In this document: positions 35,790 to 51,656 of the stretch, piece by piece
Position numbering within the stretch: the stretch's first letter is position 1
Layout: the number at the start of each line of letters is the position of its first letter
Assembly (NCBI GenBank): GCA_947453445.1
Contig: CANGGP010000010.1
Location: forward strand, 1-64,000
Direction: 5' to 3'
DNA: 64,000 bases
From: Sphingobacteriaceae bacterium
GTDB taxonomy: Bacteria > Bacteroidota > Bacteroidia > B-17B0 > Aurantibacillaceae
Translations under genes and position numbers: made by a program
Notes under the pieces: model-generated
What the model was told of the DNA's origin: nothing
What the model saw: the letters and a program-made list of their open reading frames with translations, nothing else
Database searches by the model: none

Positions 35790-37202
35790 ATGGTTTTTAG
35801 CAGCATTACTTTTTTGGTTTATTTCTTGCCGGCATTCCTGTTGCTTTACCATTTGGTTCCGCACAAGTTTAAAAACGCCGTTATTCTTTTGGCAAGTATC
35901 TATTTCTATTCTTGGGGTGGTCCAAAATTTGTATTTGTTATTTTAGGCACCACTTTTTTGGATTTCTTTTTGGTGAATGCCATGCATAACCAAAAGACCC
36001 AAAAAGCAAAATTGACCTTTTTAATACTTTCCCTTAGCCTCAACCTTGGTCTTTTATTCTACTTTAAATATTGTAACTTTTTTATTGAAAACCTCAATGC
36101 TTTGTTTGGCACCGAAATTACCTGGTTAAAGGTGGTGTTACCCATTGGCATTTCGTTTTACACTTTCGAAAGCTTAACCTACGTGGTGGATGTTTACCGA
36201 GGCATTCATAAACCTTTGAAAAACTTTTGGCATTACCAAACTTACATTTTGTTGTTTCCAAAATTAATTGCCGGTCCTATTGTTCGTTACCACGACATTG
36301 CCGATCAAATTACCAACCGCGAAAAAAACTACACAGCCTCGATTAAATTAAGCGGCTTTTTAATTTTTTGTTTGGGCTTGGCCAAAAAAACCATCATTGC
36401 CAATACCCTTGGTATGCAAGCCGATGCGGTATTTAAATTGGCCCCTGAACAATTGGATACAGTGGCAGCATGGGTGGGCGCCTTGGCCTATACCTTTCAA
36501 ATTTATTTTGATTTCAGCGGTTACAGCGATATGGCCATTGGCTTATCAAAAATCATGGGCTTTAGATTACCTGAGAACTTCAACAATCCATACGTTTCGG
36601 GAAGCATCACCGAGTTTTGGCGTCGTTGGCACATCACATTGGGTGCTTGGATGAAAAACTATTTGTACATCCCTTTAGGTGGCAACAAAGTATCGAAGTT
36701 AAAATTGTATCGCAATTTATTTGTGGTGTTTTTGTTATCGGGATTATGGCATGGCGCCAGCTGGAATTTTGTTTTATGGGGCGCTTACCACGGTGTGTTT
36801 TTGGTGATGGAACGCCTGTTTTTGGGTGATGTACTTAAAAAATTTGGGAAATTTATTTCGGTGCCTTTTACATTTTTGGTTTTGGTAACAGGTTGGGTGT
36901 TGTTTAGAAATGAAGATTTAAGTTATGCTTTGAAAGTGATTCAACAGATGTTTAATTTCAATTTGGCAGATGGTAAGTTTGCCATGAACAACGATTTTAT
37001 GATCATGGCCTTGATTGCTTTGTTCTTTTCGATGTTTACCCTTTTCACACCATTCAAACAATTTCAAGAAAAAGTTTATGGTGAGCAGTTTGAAGGTAAG
37101 GCACAATGGTATGCCGCCTTATTGGGCATTGTGTTGTTTTATGTGTCGCTTAGTTATGTGGCCGCATTAGATTTTAATCCATTTATCTATTTCCGATTTT
37201 AA
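35790..37202 (+). CDS. MBOAT-family O-acyltransferase (AlgI-like)
   Basis: A 470-residue polytopic membrane protein of the MBOAT family with about 11 membrane segments. It opens with VFSSITFLVYFLPAFLLLYH and contains the family motifs PIGISFYTFESLTYVVDVYR (about 115-135), FQIYFDFSGYSDMAIGLSKI and SITEFWRRWHITLGAWMKNY. The catalytic His is His321 in SGLWHGASWNFVLWGAYHG. AlgI-like proteins pass acetyl groups through the membrane to a periplasmic partner that acetylates a polysaccharide. The partner gene follows with a one-base overlap (TAATG). No polysaccharide synthesis genes are next to it, so the acceptor is unknown. Confidence 0.93.
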   Translation: MVFSSITFLVYFLPAFLLLYHLVPHKFKNAVILLASIYFYSWGGPKFVFVILGTTFLDFFLVNAMHNQKTQKAKLTFLILSLSLNLGLLFYFKYCNFFIENLNALFGTEITWLKVVLPIGISFYTFESLTYVVDVYRGIHKPLKNFWHYQTYILLFPKLIAGPIVRYHDIADQITNREKNYTASIKLSGFLIFCLGLAKKTIIANTLGMQADAVFKLAPEQLDTVAAWVGALAYTFQIYFDFSGYSDMAIGLSKIMGFRLPENFNNPYVSGSITEFWRRWHITLGAWMKNYLYIPLGGNKVSKLKLYRNLFVVFLLSGLWHGASWNFVLWGAYHGVFLVMERLFLGDVLKKFGKFISVPFTFLVLVTGWVLFRNEDLSYALKVIQQMFNFNLADGKFAMNNDFMIMALIALFFSMFTLFTPFKQFQEKVYGEQFEGKAQWYAALLGIVLFYVSLSYVAALDFNPFIYFRF

Positions 37203-38551
37203 TGGCTGCAAAACAAAAAACATATTCATTGCTACACGTGTTCATATTACTGGCCATTTCGATGCCTGCACTATTGGCTTGGCTGAAATTTGTAAACCGT
37301 GAATCGAAGGAAGATGTGACTTATAACAAACCAAATTTAGTAGGTTTGGTAATCAGCGACGATAAACCAAAATTTACTTTGAAAGAATGGTTGAGCGGCG
37401 ATTATCAAAAGCTGAGTGATGATTACGATAACGACCATTGGAGTTTAAAAGAACTCATGGTGCGATTAAACAACCAATTTTATTACAAAGCTTTTAATCA
37501 AATTCGGGTAAATAATTTTGTGATTGGTAAACAAGATTATGTGTTTAGTGAAGGTTATATTTTTTCTGCTTATGGCGATGATTTGATGAAAGAAGAAAAG
37601 GTGAAAGAACTATTGCGAAAGGCAAAGGTGGTGCAAGATACTTTAAAAAAGAAGGGCATCGATTTGTTGTTGGTGTATGCGCCGGGTAAAGGCATGGGTT
37701 GCAGGGAATTTGTAGAAGATAAATATGTACACCCTTATACCCAAACCAACCATGATTTGTTTGCGTCAAACAGCCAACAGCTAGGAGTGCAATATTTAGA
37801 TTTATATGCTTATTTTGAAAAACTAAAACCTGTTTCACCTTATCCTTTGTTCCCAAAATTTGGGCATCATTGGAGTTATTACGGCGAATGCCTGGCCGTG
37901 GATACCATCATTAAGCACATTGAAAACATTCACCATTGTGATATGCCCGGTATTCGTTGGCAAACAATTGATGTGGTGGATACAGCAAGAAGTCGTGATG
38001 CCGACGTGTTAAAAAGCATGAACTTGTATGCCAATCCTGAACAAAACATGAAATTGGCTTATCCAAATATTGAATTTGAATCTGATAGCGGAAAAAGTAA
38101 TACACGTGTATTAACGGTTTCTGATAGTTATTGGTATGGTCCGGTTTACATGGGCATTGGTGCCAATTGTTTTGCAGGCGGACAATTTTGGTATTATTAT
38201 AACAAGGTGATTCCATCGCCTATTCAAGGACAAAAAGTGGAGGTATGGGAATTGGATTTAAAAAAGGAAGTTGAAAGCAACCAAGTGATTATGCTTTTGT
38301 ATTCGGATGGTAATTTGTCGGGTTTTGGAAATAATTTTATTCCGGATGTTTACGAAATGTACACCTCACCGCAGACCTATTACGCACGTTACGCGCGCAA
38401 CAAACAAATTCAAAGCTATGCCAAACAAATACGCGAAACCCCTTTATTACTTAAAAAATCAACAAGCTTAAGTGACGAACGCAATATTACTTTGGATAGT
38501 GCAATACGTTATGATGCGGCGAAGATGGCGGGTTTAGGAAATGTTAAATGA
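37202..38551 (+). CDS. AlgJ/AlgX-like SGNH acyltransferase
   Basis: A 449-residue protein with one N-terminal membrane anchor (LLHVFILLAISMPALLAWLK) and a periplasmic domain of the SGNH hydrolase-like acetyltransferase group found beside AlgI. VLTVSDSYWYGPVYMG near residue 305 is the serine-containing block I, and FPKFGHHWSYYGECLAVDT near 220 is the DHxxH-like block. VNNFVIGKQDYVFSEGYIFS precedes. It should take the acetyl group delivered by the MBOAT partner and place it on a periplasmic polysaccharide, by analogy with AlgJ. Its ATG overlaps the MBOAT stop by one base. Confidence 0.85.
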   Translation: MAAKQKTYSLLHVFILLAISMPALLAWLKFVNRESKEDVTYNKPNLVGLVISDDKPKFTLKEWLSGDYQKLSDDYDNDHWSLKELMVRLNNQFYYKAFNQIRVNNFVIGKQDYVFSEGYIFSAYGDDLMKEEKVKELLRKAKVVQDTLKKKGIDLLLVYAPGKGMGCREFVEDKYVHPYTQTNHDLFASNSQQLGVQYLDLYAYFEKLKPVSPYPLFPKFGHHWSYYGECLAVDTIIKHIENIHHCDMPGIRWQTIDVVDTARSRDADVLKSMNLYANPEQNMKLAYPNIEFESDSGKSNTRVLTVSDSYWYGPVYMGIGANCFAGGQFWYYYNKVIPSPIQGQKVEVWELDLKKEVESNQVIMLLYSDGNLSGFGNNFIPDVYEMYTSPQTYYARYARNKQIQSYAKQIRETPLLLKKSTSLSDERNITLDSAIRYDAAKMAGLGNVK

Positions 38552-42424: not shown

Positions 42425-42458
42425 AAAAAAAAAAGGCTTGTGATTTGTGTCACAAGCC
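42425..42458 (-). terminator. Terminator of the TIR-like/nSTAND operon
   Basis: On the minus strand GGCTTGTGA (42458-42450) pairs perfectly with TCACAAGCC (42443-42435), followed by ten T. It lies 23 bases after the stop codon of the DinB-like gene and before the HMA gene. Confidence 0.92.
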
Positions 42459-42481
42459 AGATATGATTAAAAGCAGTAATT

Positions 42482-42973
42482 TTAGTTTTGCACCAAAGTC
42501 CATGCTTCACGGGTACTTAAATCGGTGTGCCCGTTCATTTTAAGATACAAAAAAAGTTCCATGCGATAAGCCGATAGCCATTTAATGGGGGCGTGGATAA
42601 TGGCGGCACCTAGCGCCATTTTTTCTTTTGTGGGCAAAGTGGCTTGTTTAAGTAATAAATCTTCTTCGCTGATTAAGGCCATGTATGATTGAATTTCCTC
42701 CCATTGGCGATCGATGCGTTCACTAAAATTTTGGATGCTCAAGGTGCTTCTATATTCGCGTATTTCTGCTCGCACTTCATCAGTGATGTCGTCTTTTACC
42801 AGCCAACGCATCATGTATGAGCCAATGGTTGATAGGTATTGCATGAGTTCATAGGTGCTGCGCACTTTTTCATGCGGACGGTATTGAAGGTCTTCTTCTT
42901 TGATAAAAGTGCCCAATTGTTTAAGCAGCATTAATTCGCGGCTCATGTTGAGGAGGAGGTGTTCTTTGTACAT
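42482..42973 (-). CDS. DinB-like helical protein
   Basis: A 163-residue helical protein of the DinB-like superfamily. It starts with MYKEHLLLNMSRELMLLKQL and has DLQYRPHEKVRSTYELMQYL, a typical first conserved helix pair, and later AIIHAPIKWLSAYRMELFLY. The classical three-His metal site is only partly seen. Its role is unknown. It follows the SpoIIE phosphatase after 28 bases and ends at the terminator, so it is the last gene of the operon. Confidence 0.7.
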   Translation of the reverse strand: MYKEHLLLNMSRELMLLKQLGTFIKEEDLQYRPHEKVRSTYELMQYLSTIGSYMMRWLVKDDITDEVRAEIREYRSTLSIQNFSERIDRQWEEIQSYMALISEEDLLLKQATLPTKEKMALGAAIIHAPIKWLSAYRMELFLYLKMNGHTDLSTREAWTLVQN

Positions 42974-43001
42974 GTGACTAGTTTTTAAGCTAATTTAAAG
43001 A

Positions 43002-44183
43002 TTAAATTCGAACGCCAATGATACAAACATCATCAACTTGTTCATGATTGCCTTTCCAATCCATAAAATTTTGTTCGATGGTGTTTTTTATCTCGTCAAG
43101 ATTTTTATTGGCAAGCGATAAAATCAACTCCTTTAGCGGTTTATACATAAATTTTTTCCCTTTAGGCCCGCCAAATTGGTCTGCCATTCCATCGGTTATC
43201 ATGATGATTAAATCGTTTTTTTGTGTCGTAAACTTATGTTGCGTAAATGGCAAAATCTCCCCCATTGGTTTTCCAACCGGCATTTTATCGGCTTTGTACT
43301 CAATGAGTTCATTTTGTCTAATGATCCACAATGGATTGTTGGCGGCAGCAAATGCGATTTCGTTACTTTGAAAATTAAAATTACAAATAATGGCGTCCAT
43401 GCCATCTTTACCACCTTCTTCACTGCCATCATTGGCCATGTGTTCCATGATTCGTTTTCGAGTGTAATTCAGAATTTGATCGGGTTCAATGAGGTGTTGC
43501 GCATTAACGGCTTCATTCAAGCACGAAATGTTTAATATACTCATAATGGCACCCGGCACACCATGTCCTGTACTGTCGGCCGTAACAATCGAAAAACTGC
43601 CATCTGCCAGTTTATGTGCCCAATAAAAGTCACCACTCACAATATCCTTTGGCATAAACAAAACAAAGTACTGTGGCAAATTTTCATCCAATAACTTTTT
43701 ATTGGCCAGCAATGCCTTTTGTATGCGTTGTGCATAATTTACACTGTCGAGTATTTCCTGGTGTTTATGCTCTATGTGAATTTTAAGTTCATTGATTCTT
43801 TCTTTTTCTTTGTGGATGACAGTACTGGTATTCCAAAGTTTTTTTACTTTTTCATCTAGTTTTTGTTTGGCTAATTCTAACTTTTGTTTTTCCTGTTGGA
43901 GAAGTTCATTTTGTTCTTCTATCTTTTTTCGTTCTTTGTGAACGGTTTCGCTCATTTGCCAAAGCTTGCGATTTTTTTCTTCGAGTTTTTTAAGCTCAGT
44001 TTCGCTTTCAATCTTTTTAGGTTCCTCAAGTGCCTTTTGATTTTTTATTTTTTCAACTAACAAAGCTTTTTCGTGCGTTAAGTTTGCCACTTTTTTTTTG
44101 TTACATACAATCAAAATGACTGCGCTAAGTATCAGCATAATAATTAAAGCAATCAAAAATATTATTTGTAATGAGGGGTTCAT
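43002..44183 (-). CDS. Membrane-anchored SpoIIE/PP2C-type protein phosphatase
   Basis: A 393-residue protein. Residues 5-27 form one membrane helix, residues 30-150 a long coiled coil, and 160-393 a PP2C-like phosphatase domain of the SpoIIE/RsbU type. Metal and catalytic motifs are DIVSGDFYWAHKLADGSFSI, TADSTGHGVPGAIMSILN, GGKDGMDAIICN, ITDGMADQFGGPKG and DDVCIIG, all with the expected Asp residues. The coiled coil contains two similar units (KLEEKNRKLWQMSETVHKE, and KLDEKVKKLWNTSTVIHKE about 45 residues later). It should remove phosphate from a protein partner in response to a membrane signal. It begins directly where the polytopic membrane protein gene ends. No anti-sigma or STAS partner is nearby. 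Confidence 0.9.
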   Translation of the reverse strand: MNPSLQIIFLIALIIMLILSAVILIVCNKKKVANLTHEKALLVEKIKNQKALEEPKKIESETELKKLEEKNRKLWQMSETVHKERKKIEEQNELLQQEKQKLELAKQKLDEKVKKLWNTSTVIHKEKERINELKIHIEHKHQEILDSVNYAQRIQKALLANKKLLDENLPQYFVLFMPKDIVSGDFYWAHKLADGSFSIVTADSTGHGVPGAIMSILNISCLNEAVNAQHLIEPDQILNYTRKRIMEHMANDGSEEGGKDGMDAIICNFNFQSNEIAFAAANNPLWIIRQNELIEYKADKMPVGKPMGEILPFTQHKFTTQKNDLIIMITDGMADQFGGPKGKKFMYKPLKELILSLANKNLDEIKNTIEQNFMDWKGNHEQVDDVCIIGVRI

Positions 44184-45137
44184 TTATGGGACATTGTTAC
44201 TGTTTTTACAATGTTCAATAAAATTAATATAGGCTTCCGCAATTTCATCCGATTTTTCGGCATCTTCTTCTTTTCCACTGTTTCTTAGGTCTGCAACTAC
44301 TTGAGGGAATCGGTTTTCGTAAAAACCTGGGGCGATGCCTTGCATACTAAAAAATATGTGTATGATGCGAATGGTCATGACCATAAATAAGAAAATAACA
44401 TGGGTATTTGGGATTTTTAAAAATTGAAGGACTGTAATTTTTTCTCCGGTGTTTTTGTGTTTTGGAATCAAAAGCAAAAAGATGATTACAATGGCATTGA
44501 TGAGTAAGCCAAACATCATCAGAAAATTAGCACCGGGATAATGCATGGTTTTAAAAACTGCGCTTAAGCCCACTATACAAACTGAAATGTAAATACTAGT
44601 AAGCACAAATTTACCGGATTTGTTTAGTGCTGTTTCTTGCTTCTTTTTTATGGCTCTGTAAAAATAAAATGGAATGAACAAGAGGATGCAAGTTGCAACA
44701 GTCATAGGGCCTGTGCCGTCCTTATGTAGGTTGAGAAAACCTAAGCAAGCGAATGACAGGAAGAGCACATAGTTTTCAAACACCCCTGATTGATAGTCTT
44801 GTTGATTTTTTTTTCTCTTTTTAATAATGAATAAATCTATAATTTGAGCCATCAACAGGCAAAAGTATGTAATGAACATCAAAATTGTAAAATCAAGAAC
44901 CATACTCAATAATAAATTACTGCTCAAGGTTAAAATTAAAAGATTAAAAACTTTATTTTGTTTTAATCGAATTCGGTCGACAAGGAGCATTGTCATTTCG
45001 CTAAAAAAGCTGAGGGCAAGTATTAATTGACAAATCAAAACTAGCGTTAAACCCCAGGCATTTTGCGCAAAGTTTGCGAATGATCCAAATATCATGGCCG
45101 CCGTTATTAAAATTCTTATCCTGTTTAGTTGCTTCAT
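44184..45137 (-). CDS. Polytopic membrane protein, unknown function
   Basis: A 317-residue protein with about nine hydrophobic segments and a short acidic C-terminal tail (NSGKEEDAEKSDEIAEAYIN). The helices start near residues 8, 30, 60, 82, 120, 143, 175, 200 and 240. The segment VFKTMHYPGANFLMMFGLLI resembles the FKxMHxPGA helix of Bacteroidetes GldL-like motor proteins, a weak hint of an ion-conducting or sensing role. No enzymatic motif is visible. It lies between the nSTAND NTPase (15 bases upstream) and the SpoIIE phosphatase (no gap), so it probably belongs to the same complex. Confidence 0.6.
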   Translation of the reverse strand: MKQLNRIRILITAAMIFGSFANFAQNAWGLTLVLICQLILALSFFSEMTMLLVDRIRLKQNKVFNLLILTLSSNLLLSMVLDFTILMFITYFCLLMAQIIDLFIIKKRKKNQQDYQSGVFENYVLFLSFACLGFLNLHKDGTGPMTVATCILLFIPFYFYRAIKKKQETALNKSGKFVLTSIYISVCIVGLSAVFKTMHYPGANFLMMFGLLINAIVIIFLLLIPKHKNTGEKITVLQFLKIPNTHVIFLFMVMTIRIIHIFFSMQGIAPGFYENRFPQVVADLRNSGKEEDAEKSDEIAEAYINFIEHCKNSNNVP

Positions 45138-45152
45138 GCTTTCAAACCTATG

Positions 45153-48100
45153 TTATTGATCAGTATCTAAAATAAAATATCCGAAATCATCTTCAAAAAT
45201 TGAATTAATCCAATGGTGTGTAATCAGTTGTGGATTAAAATCTTTTTTTCGCCATAATTCAGCATTAATTATAGCTGTATATAATTGCAATTGTGAATTG
45301 GAGGACAAATGATCGTTTATTTCAGTGTAAGCTTCAAAATACTTTCCACTTGCGGCTAAACCTTTGATGTAATTGTGTAAACAGTCGTATTTAACTTTTT
45401 CAGTTCGATCTTTAATTAATTTGAAGTTCAAGTTGTTGATGTAATTGGTGCTTATTTTACCCAAAACAAAACACAAGTATGAACCCCAATTTTGTGAACG
45501 GGGTAAATAGGTGTTAATGAGTGTGTCAAGCGCAACTAAACTAATGTTAGCCTTATTTCTTATGAGCAAAGTATCAGATGCTTTTATCAAGAAATTTCTA
45601 ATAAACATTTGTGAAGGGATTTTTCCAAGCGATTCGAAAGTTTTTTTATAAGTCGTATCAAATAGCAGCTTCGAAAAGTAAAAACTTTCATATAGAGCCC
45701 GATAGTTTTGTTTTAATTCATCATTATTCTTGTACTTTGAATCATCCGTTAGTTTAGAAAAATCAATTTTGGATTCAATTTGATTGGCGAGAAAATTTTG
45801 ATGTCGTTTAAAATAATAAGCACTCAAGTACATGTTCAATGCATTATTGTCGAATTCAGATTCCGGAAGTTGACTGGTGGCAAGGTTTACAAGAGAATTG
45901 TGATTTATTTTACTTTTTTTGTTTAGGTTATAAAAGTTCGAATAATATTTTAATAAATAATTGTTTAGTGTTTTTAAATCCGCTGATGTGTTATAAAACT
46001 TCTGTACACCTATCTCCTTATCGATAATCGATATAAAGTCTTGGATATCATATAATCCTTGGCTTGAATTAAGATTTAATAAATTGCAGTTATCAGGGGT
46101 TTTAAATAAGGCTGAGCGGATAATTTTTTCAGGATTACCTGAATTACTAACTATTTCAATTGATTCAGTTAAATATTGTGTTGAAATTTTTCGATAATTT
46201 TCAAGTGACTGAATGATGTAATAACGGAATTTTGTAGAATCATACGCACTGTATCTGTTATACGCAAAGGCAAAATTTTTATACGCAAGGGCTTTAAGAT
46301 AGAATGCCTCATCAGACTTATATTTGGTGTTTATTGAGTTTAATATTCCATCTAACAAATATTTTAAATCAATATCCCTTAAAAATTCGTGCTGTGTTTG
46401 TAAGTCTCTGGCATAAACCTTAAATGGGTCATTAGGTTTGTTTAAATCATTGATTCGCCAAGAATTATAATCAGAGACATCATGATTAACAATTTCATTC
46501 AATAATATGAGATCGTTAGGTAGTTTTTTCTTATTCACTTGTTTTTGGCACAAATAATTTAAAAATACTTGACCATCTTCACTATATAAAGTGTGCTTAT
46601 TAACTAAAAGCAACAGTATTTTTTGATAATTAAAGTTTGGTTCTTCAGTCACAAAATTTTGATTGTATTTATATAATGTATCTATACATCTAGTTGCGTC
46701 TTTAAAATTATTAACCAGCAGAAAGTAATTTGTCAAAAAGTAATAAGCGCCACCGTAATTAAATTCGTTGCGTGACCAGGAAGCACTAATTTTTGCGCTC
46801 TCAGGAAATAATTTTTGGAAATTGCTATTTGATTTATTTGTGAATGGATTTAAAATTGAAATAAATCTTAGAATTTGAGTGCTGTCATTTTCGCACAGCA
46901 AGGGCACAGTAAGCAGTATTTTGCCTATCGATTCAGTTCGAGAAGCGATGTTAAACTCATTCTTTTTAAAAATCTCTTCAAATCTATTAAGATGTATTTT
47001 GTACAATTGACGGATTGAATCTTGTGTGTTTTGACCTGCAATTTCCAAATGACGTTTGTTGATGCGAGTTATGGCATGGGTAACAGTGAGTATGTTCGAT
47101 AAATAAGTGTCGAAATAATTAGGTGCTATTTTTTTTGTTTGAGCATCCTTATAACTCGTATTAATAAAATCATGAAGCAATTTATTAAGCAAGGGATTAA
47201 ACTTTTTTGTTCGATCGATACCATCTTGGCGTAGCAGACAATCACCTATCATGATTCTCTGAACTTCAACGCGTTCTGAATCGGATGAAATTGAATTGAT
47301 TAATTTACTGTATTCACTTAGATTTAAATTGGCTTGTGCTTCTATAAATTTTGATTTCACATCCAATTTTACGTGGCGGGATTTGATTATTTTACTGCCA
47401 TTGGCTTGAATTAGCGCCAGTACCTTGTGGTTCTGTTTAGCACTTGAATCAAAATAGAAATAGACGCATCCAAACAAGACTAATAAAATCACAAAACCAA
47501 CCATGATATTATCCGCCCCATATTTCAAAACTGTGCGGCTTAAGAATAATCGGTTTGCGCTTTTTCTTAGAAATTTAGTCGCATTTTCAATGGTTTGAGC
47601 CGCGTCGGCAATTTTATCTTCAGCTGATATTTCACGGTCATCATAACGGGCCAACCAGTATTTATTGGGCTTAGAAGTTTTAAACCAATTTTCGAAAAAG
47701 GTTAAAGGTCCAATTGGTAATAGATAACCTGAAGATTTATCATTCTTTACCCAACGTTCAAGTTGTTTATTAAAATCCAACCATGTACTATAGTTTTCGT
47801 GTTCTTCTTGTGCCCAATCAGTGAGTTTATTCCAGTTGCGAATTAAACTTTCGTGGGTAATGTCTAAAACGCTGTCGGGATTTAAGCCTTGTGAAGACTG
47901 TTCGTCAAAAATGAAAGGTTTTATAAAGGTGTTGCCTTGCCGGCGGAACACAGTTAAGGTTTTCGACACTTTTTCGATGCCTATGGCATTGTCATTAATA
48001 ATGTTGGTGATTTCCTGCAAGGTCATTCGGTTCCTTACTGCACGCGATTCGTCGATTTTTGTAAGGCATTTAAAGGTTGTTTCTACTATGCGTTTTGCCT

Positions 48101-49199
48101 CTTCGTTGCTTACTAATTCTTCAAAACCAGAATTGGCAGTTTGATACAGTTCATTGGCGTGTGCATCCAATACATCACCCAATGAAGAATGACTAAAAAG
48201 GTGTTTTTTGAATTCAGGGAGATTTTCAAACCATTGGTCGAACAAAAGTTGATCGTTTTTGCTTAAGTGTTCACGGGAAATACCATTTATCTTCGCAAAG
48301 TGAATGAGGTCCATTTCCACCCGGCCCATATCGGCTTTCATCCAAATTTGATTGAGGGCATGTTGTAAAACGGGCAACTGATCTATACCATCGTTCATTT
48401 CATTGATCAGCATCTCCACCAAACGTTTCGAAATTTTGTTAGCGTTTAATAAAGCCGGTTCCTCAATTACTTGATAAATTTCTTTGCGTTTTAAACGGGG
48501 CACAAAAAACTGACTATAACCAATATACTCCGGCAAACCTCTAAAGGATGCACATTGGCCGATATAATCAGATCGCATGGTGCAAATGATATAAATAGGA
48601 ATGTCTTGTTCGATAGCCAATCTGGCAGTTTCGAGCAAAACGTTCACTACTGTTTGTGAAGCCAAAGATGTTTTACCGTGAATGTAGTTTTCGGGATTGG
48701 TGAAAAATTCTTCGAATTGATCAACCAGAATTAAAAGGTTCGCGCCTTTGCGCTTTATTTTCTTCTGCTCATCTGCATTTAAACCTAAAAATGCCTCAGA
48801 GTTTTGATCCACCCAAAAGGCAGAAGATTTGTACAAATCAATTAAAGATGAAAAACCGTAACTTAATTCTCTTTCTACTTTTTGAAGGTCATTTATTTTT
48901 AATTGCTGATTGATGCTAATCGCCATATTGGCGAGTGGTTCACGCTCAGGTCTAAAATCGGCCACCACCCAATTGTTGAATTTGGCTTTAAAAAAACCGG
49001 CTCTCGCATTTGGAATTAATCCTGCATAAACTAAAGAGGACTTTCCATCACCGGATGCACCGGTTAACATCAAGAATTTTTTTTCTTCAAGTTGCTTTAC
49101 AATTTGTTCAATATGTTCATCGCGCCCTTTAAAGAAAATAGATTCATCTTCATTAAAAGGCCTTAAACCGGGATATGGACAAATTATATGTTCTTGCAT
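45153..49199 (-). CDS. Membrane-anchored nSTAND-type NTPase with long helical C-terminus
   Basis: A 1348-residue protein of the novel STAND (nSTAND1) group. It begins MQEHIICPYPGLRPFNEDES, the hallmark of the group, with FFKGRDEHIEQIVKQLEEK next. The Walker A loop is LTGASGDGKSSLVYAGLIP (about 42-60), Walker B is LLILVDQFEEFFTNPE (about 150-165), and CTMRSDYIGQCASFRGLPEY is the sensor region. Helical domains follow to about residue 530. One membrane helix (NIMVGFVILLVLFGCVYFYF, about 562-582) separates the ATPase from a 760-residue helical, TPR-like C-terminus that lies on the far side of the membrane. STAND proteins are ATP-driven switches used in defence and signalling. Here the sensor end would face the periplasm. 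The TIR-like gene ends two bases upstream. Confidence 0.88.
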   Translation of the reverse strand: MQEHIICPYPGLRPFNEDESIFFKGRDEHIEQIVKQLEEKKFLMLTGASGDGKSSLVYAGLIPNARAGFFKAKFNNWVVADFRPEREPLANMAISINQQLKINDLQKVERELSYGFSSLIDLYKSSAFWVDQNSEAFLGLNADEQKKIKRKGANLLILVDQFEEFFTNPENYIHGKTSLASQTVVNVLLETARLAIEQDIPIYIICTMRSDYIGQCASFRGLPEYIGYSQFFVPRLKRKEIYQVIEEPALLNANKISKRLVEMLINEMNDGIDQLPVLQHALNQIWMKADMGRVEMDLIHFAKINGISREHLSKNDQLLFDQWFENLPEFKKHLFSHSSLGDVLDAHANELYQTANSGFEELVSNEEAKRIVETTFKCLTKIDESRAVRNRMTLQEITNIINDNAIGIEKVSKTLTVFRRQGNTFIKPFIFDEQSSQGLNPDSVLDITHESLIRNWNKLTDWAQEEHENYSTWLDFNKQLERWVKNDKSSGYLLPIGPLTFFENWFKTSKPNKYWLARYDDREISAEDKIADAAQTIENATKFLRKSANRLFLSRTVLKYGADNIMVGFVILLVLFGCVYFYFDSSAKQNHKVLALIQANGSKIIKSRHVKLDVKSKFIEAQANLNLSEYSKLINSISSDSERVEVQRIMIGDCLLRQDGIDRTKKFNPLLNKLLHDFINTSYKDAQTKKIAPNYFDTYLSNILTVTHAITRINKRHLEIAGQNTQDSIRQLYKIHLNRFEEIFKKNEFNIASRTESIGKILLTVPLLCENDSTQILRFISILNPFTNKSNSNFQKLFPESAKISASWSRNEFNYGGAYYFLTNYFLLVNNFKDATRCIDTLYKYNQNFVTEEPNFNYQKILLLLVNKHTLYSEDGQVFLNYLCQKQVNKKKLPNDLILLNEIVNHDVSDYNSWRINDLNKPNDPFKVYARDLQTQHEFLRDIDLKYLLDGILNSINTKYKSDEAFYLKALAYKNFAFAYNRYSAYDSTKFRYYIIQSLENYRKISTQYLTESIEIVSNSGNPEKIIRSALFKTPDNCNLLNLNSSQGLYDIQDFISIIDKEIGVQKFYNTSADLKTLNNYLLKYYSNFYNLNKKSKINHNSLVNLATSQLPESEFDNNALNMYLSAYYFKRHQNFLANQIESKIDFSKLTDDSKYKNNDELKQNYRALYESFYFSKLLFDTTYKKTFESLGKIPSQMFIRNFLIKASDTLLIRNKANISLVALDTLINTYLPRSQNWGSYLCFVLGKISTNYINNLNFKLIKDRTEKVKYDCLHNYIKGLAASGKYFEAYTEINDHLSSNSQLQLYTAIINAELWRKKDFNPQLITHHWINSIFEDDFGYFILDTDQ

Positions 49200-49201
49200 G
49201 A

Positions 49202-50149
49202 TTACACGGCCGACTCTAATACTTTATCGAATTGAACTTTAATTTCTAATGGAATTAATTCACCTGCAACAATTAAGGAAACCACTTTAGGGGCTTTGAA
49301 CTTTACGTTCATGTTTGTTTCAGGGTCCTCATCGCCAATTAATAGAATTGGTGTATGTGAGGAGGCGCCACCTATTTTTTTCCAAATCTGTTGGGTAAAA
49401 GGAAGGGCCCAATCGGCTGATTCTTTAAAATAAACAACAGCTAATTTGCTTTTGCCTATTTGTTGAACACAAAATTCGGAATAATCGAGGTCGCTATCTT
49501 GAACGATGTTAAGTTTTTCAACGGGTATAATGTCACTCAGCATGTCGGCTACTTCAGCAGCTTCAAAATCATCTAATTGATTGTAAACCAAAAACACATC
49601 GGTGTCTTTAATGTCGAATGATTGTTTTTGATTTGTTTTAACGCTTAATCTTAAATCATCAGCGAGTTGAATGGCAGAAGGTGTATTACTAAAGTTAATG
49701 CCGCTAACTATGTTGTTTCGAATTTCGGCAATAAATTGTTTTTGAGCTTCATCTTGAATGTCGTTTACATTAAAAGGAAACCACACAAAAAGCCTGAATT
49801 CAGGATCTTGTTTTAATTTTTCAAGGGCCGCTAAATATTGATAATGTTCAATGCTTTGATTATTCATGAGTAGCGCCCCATAGTTTAAACCCAATATGTG
49901 TAAAGAAGCATTTGCTGCGTCAAGGTTTTGTTGAATCACGCCAGTGTTGCCATTAAATTCTAAATCCGAAGGAAAGCTTTGCAAACCTGATTTAACCAAT
50001 GTGTTTAGAAGTTGCGTTCTGCTCTCAAGAAGATGATTGGAGTTGAATGCTAAATAAATTCCCGCCATAATCAGAGTTTGTAATAACAAATATATAGGAT
50101 TTATTATAGGAAACAAATGTTGACGCAGATTTTCAATAAAAATGGTCAT
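49202..50149 (-). CDS. Membrane-anchored TIR-like domain protein
   Basis: A 315-residue protein with a single N-terminal hydrophobic segment (NPIYLLLQTLIMAGIYLAFN, about 17-36). Residues 60-170 form an alpha/beta domain (ANASLHILGLNYGALLMNNQ; FRLFVWFPFNVNDIQDEAQK). Residues 183-300 are TIR-like: DVFLVYNQLDDFEAAEVADM, LNIVQDSDLDYSEFCVQQIG, KSKLAVVYFKESADWALPF. The position after the Trp, where NADase TIR domains usually have a catalytic Glu, reads ALPFTQQ, so catalysis is doubtful. It may act as an adaptor for the nSTAND protein, whose gene starts two bases downstream. Confidence 0.7.
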   Translation of the reverse strand: MTIFIENLRQHLFPIINPIYLLLQTLIMAGIYLAFNSNHLLESRTQLLNTLVKSGLQSFPSDLEFNGNTGVIQQNLDAANASLHILGLNYGALLMNNQSIEHYQYLAALEKLKQDPEFRLFVWFPFNVNDIQDEAQKQFIAEIRNNIVSGINFSNTPSAIQLADDLRLSVKTNQKQSFDIKDTDVFLVYNQLDDFEAAEVADMLSDIIPVEKLNIVQDSDLDYSEFCVQQIGKSKLAVVYFKESADWALPFTQQIWKKIGGASSHTPILLIGDEDPETNMNVKFKAPKVVSLIVAGELIPLEIKVQFDKVLESAV

Positions 50150-50152
50150 GCA

Positions 50153-51226
50153 TCAAGATCGATCCCTCAAATCCATGACCGGTTTTTCGAAAAAGCGGTA
50201 CCATAAATAAGACACAAAGTAAATGCCAATCCAAATGGCCACAAACACCGCAATGTTATAGGTGGCTGGTAACTTTTCAATCTGTGGTTTAAAAATGAGA
50301 ATTAAAGGTAAGTTGATCAAATACATGGCGTATGAAATTTTTGCAGTAAAACGAAAAGGCCGCAGTGGTATTTTTTCAGTGCCCAATGAATTTAAAAAAG
50401 GCAATAATAATAAAATGCTGAAGGCTTCTATACTTCCAAAATAAGTTTTGTAAAAATCGGGATGGTAATTTTCACCGAAGCGAAATAAATACAACATTAA
50501 CATAATACCTGTGATGAACGCAGGGTATTTGAATTTGTACCACACCTTAGGATAATACATGTGAAAAAAAGCTGCCAATAAGCCAAATGCAATGGTGTCG
50601 AGGCGGGCGAGCACCATGCGGCGGAAATATACCTCGTGTTGCACGTATATATTTAAACAATGTAATCTCCATATTAACGGCAAAATCACCATCAAAAGCA
50701 CAGCGCCTAAAAAAGCAAACTTCAAGCGTATTTTGAAGAAACCGTGTGAAAACAAAAGTAAAAATGGGAATAGTAAATAGAACCATTCTTCTACCGCTAA
50801 ACTCCAGGATTCCCAGAAGAAAAAGTCGAAGGATTTATAAAAATTTTGAAAAAAGGCGAAGTAGGTGATGGCGTATTTGTTAATGGTGCCATATAATACA
50901 CCGCTGCTGACCAAAACAAGGTTCAATACTAAAAACACATAATAACTTGGCAGGGTTTTAAACCAACGGCGTTTTAAAAATTGAAATACAATACCGGTAC
51001 TGATGTTCTGTTTTGCTTGAATTTGTTGCAGAAGCAAGGTGCCGATTAAAAATCCGCTCAACACAAAAAACAAATCTACACCATCGGGTGTGGGTATGTA
51101 AGGAAAGCCCGGAAAAGAAGGTTGTAAAATAAAGGCCGTGTGCGATAAGATAACGATACCAATGGCGATGCTTCGCAGCAAATCTAAACCAAAGATGGGT
51201 TCCTTATGCGCAGTAAGGCTTTGCAT
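50153..51226 (-). CDS. Acyltransferase 3 family membrane protein
   Basis: A 357-residue protein with about ten membrane helices of the acyltransferase-3 (OafA/NodX) family. It opens with FGLDLLRSIAIGIVILSHTA, containing the usual catalytic His region, and DGVDLFFVLSGFLIGTLLLQ, the second hallmark. Later WSLAVEEWFYLLFPFLLLFS carries the conserved Trp-Ser/Glu motif. It would acylate a cell-surface sugar or lipid. It lies three bases upstream of the TIR-like gene on the same strand and may be co-transcribed, though a functional link is unproven. Confidence 0.9.
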   Translation of the reverse strand: MQSLTAHKEPIFGLDLLRSIAIGIVILSHTAFILQPSFPGFPYIPTPDGVDLFFVLSGFLIGTLLLQQIQAKQNISTGIVFQFLKRRWFKTLPSYYVFLVLNLVLVSSGVLYGTINKYAITYFAFFQNFYKSFDFFFWESWSLAVEEWFYLLFPFLLLFSHGFFKIRLKFAFLGAVLLMVILPLIWRLHCLNIYVQHEVYFRRMVLARLDTIAFGLLAAFFHMYYPKVWYKFKYPAFITGIMLMLYLFRFGENYHPDFYKTYFGSIEAFSILLLLPFLNSLGTEKIPLRPFRFTAKISYAMYLINLPLILIFKPQIEKLPATYNIAVFVAIWIGIYFVSYLWYRFFEKPVMDLRDRS

Positions 51227-51233
51227 TCAAAAA

Positions 51234-51656
51234 TTAAGCTTGCAATAAAGTGGCGATGTCGAATTTCTTCATTTTCAAAAAGGCCTGCATCACACGCGGA
51301 CCTTTTTCTTTGTCGCCCATTAGTTGACTCAATATTTTTGGGATCACTTGCCAAGAAACACCGTATTTATCTTTACACCAGCCACACTGGCTTTCTTTGC
51401 CCTCTTTGGTGAACGCATTCCAATAGTGGTCAATGTCTTCTTGTGTATCGCATTCAATCACAAACGAAACCGATTCGTTGAACTTGAATTGATCGCCGCC
51501 ATTCAAGCCCATGAATTTAAAACCATTCAATTCAAACATCACCACCATGGGATTTTGGGAAGTAATTTTTGAATCTTTAAAAATACTACAGTAATAGTCG
51601 GCTGCTTCTTTGGCATTGTTATTAAACCAAAGGCAGGTGTAAAGCGGGTGTTGCAT
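51234..51656 (-). CDS. VOC-fold protein (PhnB-like)
   Basis: A 140-residue protein of the vicinal-oxygen-chelate superfamily, PhnB-like/3-demethylubiquinone methyltransferase-related type. It starts MQHPLYTCLWFNNNAKEAAD and YYCSIFKDSKI, then NPMVVMFELNGFKFMGLNGG and WNAFTKEGKESQCGWCKDKY; GVSWQVIPKILSQLM precedes the C-terminal helix. One or two metal ligands (His3, Glu46) are in the usual places. Its reaction is not known. It lies seven bases upstream of the acyltransferase gene and could be the first gene of that transcript. Confidence 0.85.
   Translation of the reverse strand: MQHPLYTCLWFNNNAKEAADYYCSIFKDSKITSQNPMVVMFELNGFKFMGLNGGDQFKFNESVSFVIECDTQEDIDHYWNAFTKEGKESQCGWCKDKYGVSWQVIPKILSQLMGDKEKGPRVMQAFLKMKKFDIATLLQA

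Follow-up and report, generated by a model that had tools for sequence, protein, structure and literature searches.

What could a TIR-like protein, a STAND ATPase, a polytopic membrane protein and a SpoIIE phosphatase be doing together in one tightly packed bacterial operon? The question arose from seven open reading frames (ORFs) that run along the minus strand, from 51656 to 42482, of a 64,000-nucleotide stretch of a Sphingobacteriaceae bacterium (contig CANGGP010000010.1, assembly GCA_947453445.1; the window hereafter). The four central genes (50068-43002; Table 1) are the core of a real and recurrent modular system, and we propose that their products form an envelope-spanning STAND signaling complex with a PP2C-type phosphatase as its output, a reading to which we give a probability of roughly 55%.

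Since the order TIR-STAND-TM9-SpoIIE (TM9 being the polytopic protein) is kept in two genomes of another genus, G075 and G080, with about 30-70% identity per protein, the four-gene association is more than chance. Reduced or extended forms of the operon are present in many more genomes; a match to the TIR-like protein was found in 8 of the 87 family genomes, and in five of these, the window's own genome among them, it was strong. A GTDB-wide scan returned 48 related loci, and in nearly all of those readable on both sides the gene for the two-domain TIR-like protein (TIR-AB) adjoins an nSTAND1 gene with one transmembrane (TM) segment; the exceptions include L093 and L095, in which TIR-AB is directly followed by SpoIIE with no STAND between. 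The first-pass annotation of the window, made without database searches, had suggested looking for such co-occurrence, and the core genes do recur together, their homologs not being scattered; the gaps of 2, 15 and 0 bases that it gave (TIR-like/STAND, STAND/TM9 and TM9/SpoIIE) agree with the ORF coordinates. That the genes are co-directional neighbors without a shared function would fit the three genes on either side of the core (VOC, acyltransferase and DinB), but the conservation of the core order across genera, the 0-15-base gaps and the frequent presence of SpoIIE in related loci (see below) leave this explanation very little room. In G080 (L037:11850-12397; L055:10888-11435), a ParE-type toxin gene (PF05016) and a small upstream partner lie between the TIR-like and STAND genes; this insertion is not found in G075.

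The STAND protein matched nSTAND1 (PF20703) at 235.8 bits relative to a cut-off of 27.1 (E-value 1.6e-69, best stretch residues 8-309), and its Walker motifs (GASGDGKS and LILVDQFEE) are largely intact across the homologous STANDs; a search for solved relatives by sequence gave chance-level matches only. The single central helix ascribed to this protein by the first-pass annotation is present as one strong TM segment (residues 565-583; 47507-47451). The intact homologs have one main TM near residues 560-620, and positive charge is greater before the TM than after it in nearly all of them. Because the single TM has the more positive N-terminal flank, we predict an N-in/C-out topology, in which the NTPase would be cytoplasmic and the C-terminal half periplasmic.

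This outside half differs among relatives, being helical in the window protein and either WD40 or GldM domains 2-4 in others. The STAND of G003 (L039, on a single 4.6-Mb contig) has GldM_2nd, GldM_3rd and GldM_4th after the TM (E-values 1.1e-11 to 4.5e-14) plus TonB_C, and that of G028 (L038, the same locus as L059) has the same three GldM domains after its TM, all of them above gathering; by Pfam these three domains are absent after the TM in the window STAND. The partner genes of related loci all point to the cell envelope. L042 and L070 combine GldL_N and GldM_1st within one protein (the GldL_N of L070 being weak), and L061 has two separate GldM_3rd-4th proteins, one recognized by profile and the other by similarity. 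In L064, a WD40-type STAND is followed by an outer membrane protein (OMP)-type barrel and PKD/Kelch proteins; L063, L067 and L093 have partners of the same kinds, and L063 and L093 also encode cargo-type proteins with the C-terminal sorting domain of the type IX secretion system (T9SS-CTD). L072 has an OMP barrel with SPOR, and L071 encodes OmpA and FG-GAP/OmpA proteins. The envelope sensor that the first-pass annotation had offered as one possibility thus gains support from the GldL/GldM domains, the barrels, OmpA, the Kelch and FG-GAP propellers, the T9SS cargo and the N-in/C-out STANDs. At L093:4444-10654 and L083:4851-10891, an array of similar genes of ~300 residues separates the TIR-like gene from an nSTAND fragment; PCMD and a T9SS sorting tail were identified in the member tested.

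The first-pass annotation described TM9 as a nine-helix protein, which broadly agrees with the roughly 8-9 hydrophobic segments in its sequence. Its last hairpins resemble GldL (residues 184-228; 44588-44454) and include FKTMHYPG, which conforms to the motif FK-x-x-H-x-PG. The match to GldL_N (PF22827) had an E-value of 4.9e-5 and scored 23.9 bits, just under the cut-off of 24, and that to TIGR03513 had an E-value of 0.0014. Against a profile of genuine GldL, TM9 scored 41, the maximum among 120 shuffled and 8 reversed controls being 17; we relied on this control because one column-shuffle of a mixed alignment (A3) scored 135, higher than the 86 of the real alignment. GldL Glu49 in TMH2 is strictly conserved and required for the motor (PMC8986121), and its equivalent in the FKTMHYPG hairpin of TM9 is Asn. 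With GldL_N below gathering and no Glu49, the sequence supports TM9 as related to GldL but not itself a GldL. Full-length TM9 homologs were found in G000, G075 and G080, and shorter ones in G001 and G057, among the 87 family genomes. Apart from the operon, L105:9513-10535 (contig C17 of the window's own genome) is an orphan GldL_N-GldM_1st fusion that lies outside gldKLMN and is not near a STAND. GldL_N-type hairpin proteins (one fused to GldM_1st) also occur with a small regulator-like gene in a recurring cluster (L043-L049 and L054), often with SpoIIE genes nearby.

These Gld-type parts could be taken to mean that the system is a regulator or checkpoint of T9SS and gliding, its GldL/GldM-like components contacting or mimicking either the cargo or the GldLM motor itself, and the state of the machinery being reported through SpoIIE. 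The fusion of GldM_2-4 to STAND in relatives, the GldL-like hairpins of TM9 and the T9SS-CTD proteins in operons L063 and L093 are what such a regulator might look like, and in G075 and G080 the operon is directly downstream of gldKLMN. However, those two genomes belong to one genus, and a terminator-like hairpin in the gldN-TIR gap makes co-transcription doubtful; gldKLMN is on another contig in the window's own genome, the system is absent from most of the 87 family genomes, and several WD40-type members have no Gld part. On balance we regard a role in T9SS control as improbable.

The TIR-like gene was a different matter, as the first-pass annotation had given its product a membrane anchor in the form of an N-terminal helix. 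Homologs in L036, L055 and L056 begin with MSGIYLAF, which aligns to MAGIYLAF at Met28 of the window protein (50068), and the remaining short homologs likewise begin at about the equivalent of Met28; by hydropathy, no hydrophobic segment is left beyond this position. A candidate promoter of the Bacteroidota -33/-7 type (TTTG-N19-TATATTTG) falls inside the stretch formerly read as the anchor, although the argument here is its position rather than its rarity (3 such motifs found in the window and 4.1 expected). Based on these three observations, the gene most likely starts at 50068 rather than 50149 and would encode a soluble protein; we rejected the anchor as a product of the wrong start codon. 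Thus, of the four central products that had been described as membrane-bound, the STAND, TM9 and SpoIIE proteins do carry TM segments but the TIR-like protein carries none.

Pfam gave only a weak DUF4062 match to the TIR-like protein, and no solved-structure relatives were found by sequence. Its AlphaFold2 model (pLDDT 92.1) has two compact domains with the alternating beta-alpha arrangement of the TIR superfamily, and as modeled the protein is a tandem of two TIR-fold/Rossmann-like domains. In structure comparisons domain A matched plant TIRs at a Z of about 13 (13.1 for RUN1) and DNPH1 at a Z of 14, and domain B matched generic Rossmann folds only (Z under 11). Within the family, conservation is highest in domain B (invariant WALPF, Q, W and GGA), yet no Glu stands where a TIR would have it, WALPF itself containing none. 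The consensus Glu of domain A, which many homologs retain, is Ala80 in the window protein. As judged by sequence, then, neither domain has the catalytic Glu (W-x-x-E or S..E region) of a TIR NADase.

The phosphatase has the features that the first-pass annotation gave it, a PP2C-type domain on a membrane-anchored coiled coil: one N-terminal TM (residues 7-25), the coiled coil and a catalytic domain at residues 194-392 (PF07228, E-value 4e-21). The motifs GDFYW, DSTGHG, TDGMAD and VDD are intact, and the metal-site motifs are largely intact across homologous loci. Among loci with at least 8 kb readable downstream, SpoIIE was present downstream in 10/13 loci with short TIR proteins, i.e., those without the TIR glutamate, and in 0/13 with long ones, which carry an extra N-terminal TIR domain (Fisher p 1e-4); for comparison, the 3.7 Mb of the window's own genome hold nine SpoIIE genes in all. 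A TIR-type W-x-x-E motif is found in all long TIR proteins except that of L077. TM9 lies on both sides of this split, since three Balneolaceae loci (L075, L078 and L079) pair a TM9 homolog and two tandem nSTAND1 genes with a long TIR protein, without SpoIIE.

On the reading we favor, the nSTAND1 protein at rest would be held off in an ADP state, the NTPase being cytoplasmic and the large C-terminal region facing outward, and its TM helix would pack against the GldL-like TM9 as GldM packs inside GldL. A trigger from outside (damage to the envelope, contact of an invader with it, or a change in the surface or the T9SS machinery) would be relayed through the TM unit, upon which the NTPase would exchange its nucleotide and oligomerize. 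The two-domain TIR-like protein may act as a soluble, non-enzymatic adaptor between the STAND and SpoIIE, and SpoIIE, once switched on, would dephosphorylate its target, for example a STAS protein of RsbV type. On this view the operon would have as its sister those TIR-STAND pairs in which a candidate TIR enzyme is retained, with SpoIIE standing in that enzyme's place. Counts across the window's own genome, which derive from family searches, gave nine SpoIIE genes in 3.7 Mb, one RsbW-like kinase and one lone STAS protein, and a partner-switch route through such STAS/RsbW-like proteins is possible on these sequence matches. A bolder version of this proposal, which we put forward as tentative, is that a STAND has been joined to parts of the T9SS/gliding motor so that an immune-type switch became an envelope receptor, with a GldL/GldM-like transenvelope input (possibly sensing force or a proton gradient) and with the TIR enzyme replaced as output by a phosphatase.

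Several points weigh against the signaling complex as we have drawn it. The tree parts the short-TIR and long-TIR groups once, with support of 99/97; because of this, the mutual exclusion of SpoIIE and the extra TIR domain is a single evolutionary event rather than many exchanges. The 13 long-TIR loci are mostly from Hymenobacter, and two loci labeled Bacteroidales and Rikenella (L076 and L081) had neither an extra TIR domain nor a detectable SpoIIE. Neither the STAS gene nor the RsbW-like gene is adjacent to the operon, both lying on other contigs. TM topology was called from hydropathy alone, and the model of the STAND outside part, a mainly helical chain, is of moderate confidence (pLDDT 73.8, pTM 0.71); it had no PDB match at E <= 0.001, which is not proof of a new fold. 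In addition, STAND/TIR pairs are usually read as immune, cell-suicide systems.

The first-pass annotation had also raised abortive infection. In an anti-phage system of this kind, the STAND would sense an invader component or phage damage at the envelope, and growth would be halted by SpoIIE or by the TIR-like protein. The name nSTAND1 itself stems from a study of predicted conflict systems (PMC8195603), the distribution among the 87 family genomes is patchy, and the sister clade retains the TIR W-x-x-E motif. Few 7-kb stretches of the window are as AT-rich as the operon, which is weak evidence of transfer. Against this, both domains of the TIR-like protein lack the TIR glutamate; no PADLOC model (2023 library) matched at E<=1 except for coiled-coil matches on SpoIIE; the ten window neighbors tested were metabolic or housekeeping genes, with no sign of a defense island; and the partners are envelope proteins rather than nucleases or membrane toxins. 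No phage or viral-contig homologs were found, nor any plasmid match for TM9, and we rejected a mobile element; one Hymenobacter plasmid does carry the long-TIR pair. Of the two possibilities raised earlier, then, the envelope sensor stands on firmer ground while abortive infection has become weaker, and we consider the latter unlikely. A more defense-like setting was seen at L081:8538-16024, where a type ISP restriction protein and an AAA_15/LRR protein lie within a TIR-STAND run.

At its edges the operon is less compact than it had seemed. The tight packing described at the outset holds within the core, but packing with the upstream genes is doubtful because the corrected start leaves 84 bases to the acyltransferase and because VOC, acyltransferase and DinB genes are absent from homologous operons; for the latter reason we rejected all three as parts of the system. 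The DinB-like gene is probably a co-transcribed passenger outside the conserved core, and the terminator reported after it is indeed present. Elsewhere in the window (35790-38551), an MBOAT O-acyltransferase gene is directly followed by one for an AlgX-like SGNH protein, a candidate pair for surface polysaccharide acetylation.

Table 1. Features of the operon and its surroundings, in window coordinates.
Feature	Coordinates	Strand	Remarks
VOC / 3-demethylubiquinone-9 3-methyltransferase-like gene	51234..51656	minus	PF06983, 1.9e-38; upstream of core
Acyltransferase 3 family gene	50153..51226	minus	PF01757, 5e-24; upstream of core
Candidate Bacteroidota-type promoter, TTTG-N19-TATATTTG	50087..50117	minus	18 bases upstream of corrected TIR-like start
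TIR-like gene	49202..50068	minus	most likely start (corrected); 288 aa, predicted soluble
Domain A of TIR-like protein	~50068-49631	minus	aa 1-146; DUF4062/TIR/DNPH1-like fold (model)
Domain B of TIR-like protein	~49606-49205	minus	aa 155-288; Rossmann/TIR-like fold (model)
nSTAND1 ATPase gene	45153..49199	minus	1348 aa; PF20703
Predicted periplasmic part of STAND	45156..47450	minus	765 aa, mostly helical (solenoid-like); GC 30.5%
Polytopic membrane protein gene (TM9)	44184..45137	minus	317 aa
SpoIIE (PP2C-type) phosphatase gene	43002..44183	minus	393 aa
DinB-like gene	42482..42973	minus	DinB_2, 0.0077; 28 bases 3' of SpoIIE
Intrinsic terminator	42435..42458	minus	9-bp stem, then T10; 3' of DinB-like gene

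In the open literature searched (subscription papers and preprints being outside the search), we found no description of this system and no relevant paper joining nSTAND with GldM or GldM with SpoIIE. The closest known relatives are the TIR + nSTAND1 conflict pairs, which share a Walker-intact nSTAND1 beside a TIR-superfamily protein and a variable C-terminal sensor (WD40 in some); the window system differs in having no N-terminal catalytic-type TIR, in its SpoIIE and envelope module, and in a sensor predicted to be periplasmic. The main text of PMC7159879 and PMC8195603 contains no SpoIIE or Gld terms. With the GldLM motor (PMC8986121, PMC9389320) it shares the GldL_N-type hairpin in TM9 and, in related STANDs, three GldM shaft domains; however, TM9 has no Glu49 equivalent, the relatives' shaft domains are on an ATPase, and the operon has no GldK or GldN counterpart. 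The PP2C-type domain, acidic metal-binding motifs, membrane anchor and coiled coil are as in RsbU/SpoIIE partner-switching phosphatases, although here control would be by a STAND and a TIR-like adaptor, with no adjacent STAS or anti-sigma gene, and the best NCBIfam match, SiaA, scored 147.8 bits relative to a cut-off of 700. Zorya couples a ZorAB motor to cytosolic effectors, and in general terms it too combines a membrane unit of the 5:2-motor type with a cytosolic NTPase in a candidate stress or defense operon, but the parts here are of GldL/GldM type rather than MotAB type, the output would be a phosphatase, and TM9 does not have the motor glutamate. The family suggests that Bacteroidota turned an immune-type switch into a transmembrane receptor with a swappable outside part, whose output would be a phosphatase rather than an NAD-destroying enzyme; this would tie immune-type signaling to the gliding and type IX secretion machinery and offer a testable case of one output module substituting for another. 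In comparison with these known systems, we see the operon as a variant of TIR-nSTAND1 systems with a putative periplasmic sensor, T9SS-motor-like parts and a phosphatase that would replace the TIR enzyme.

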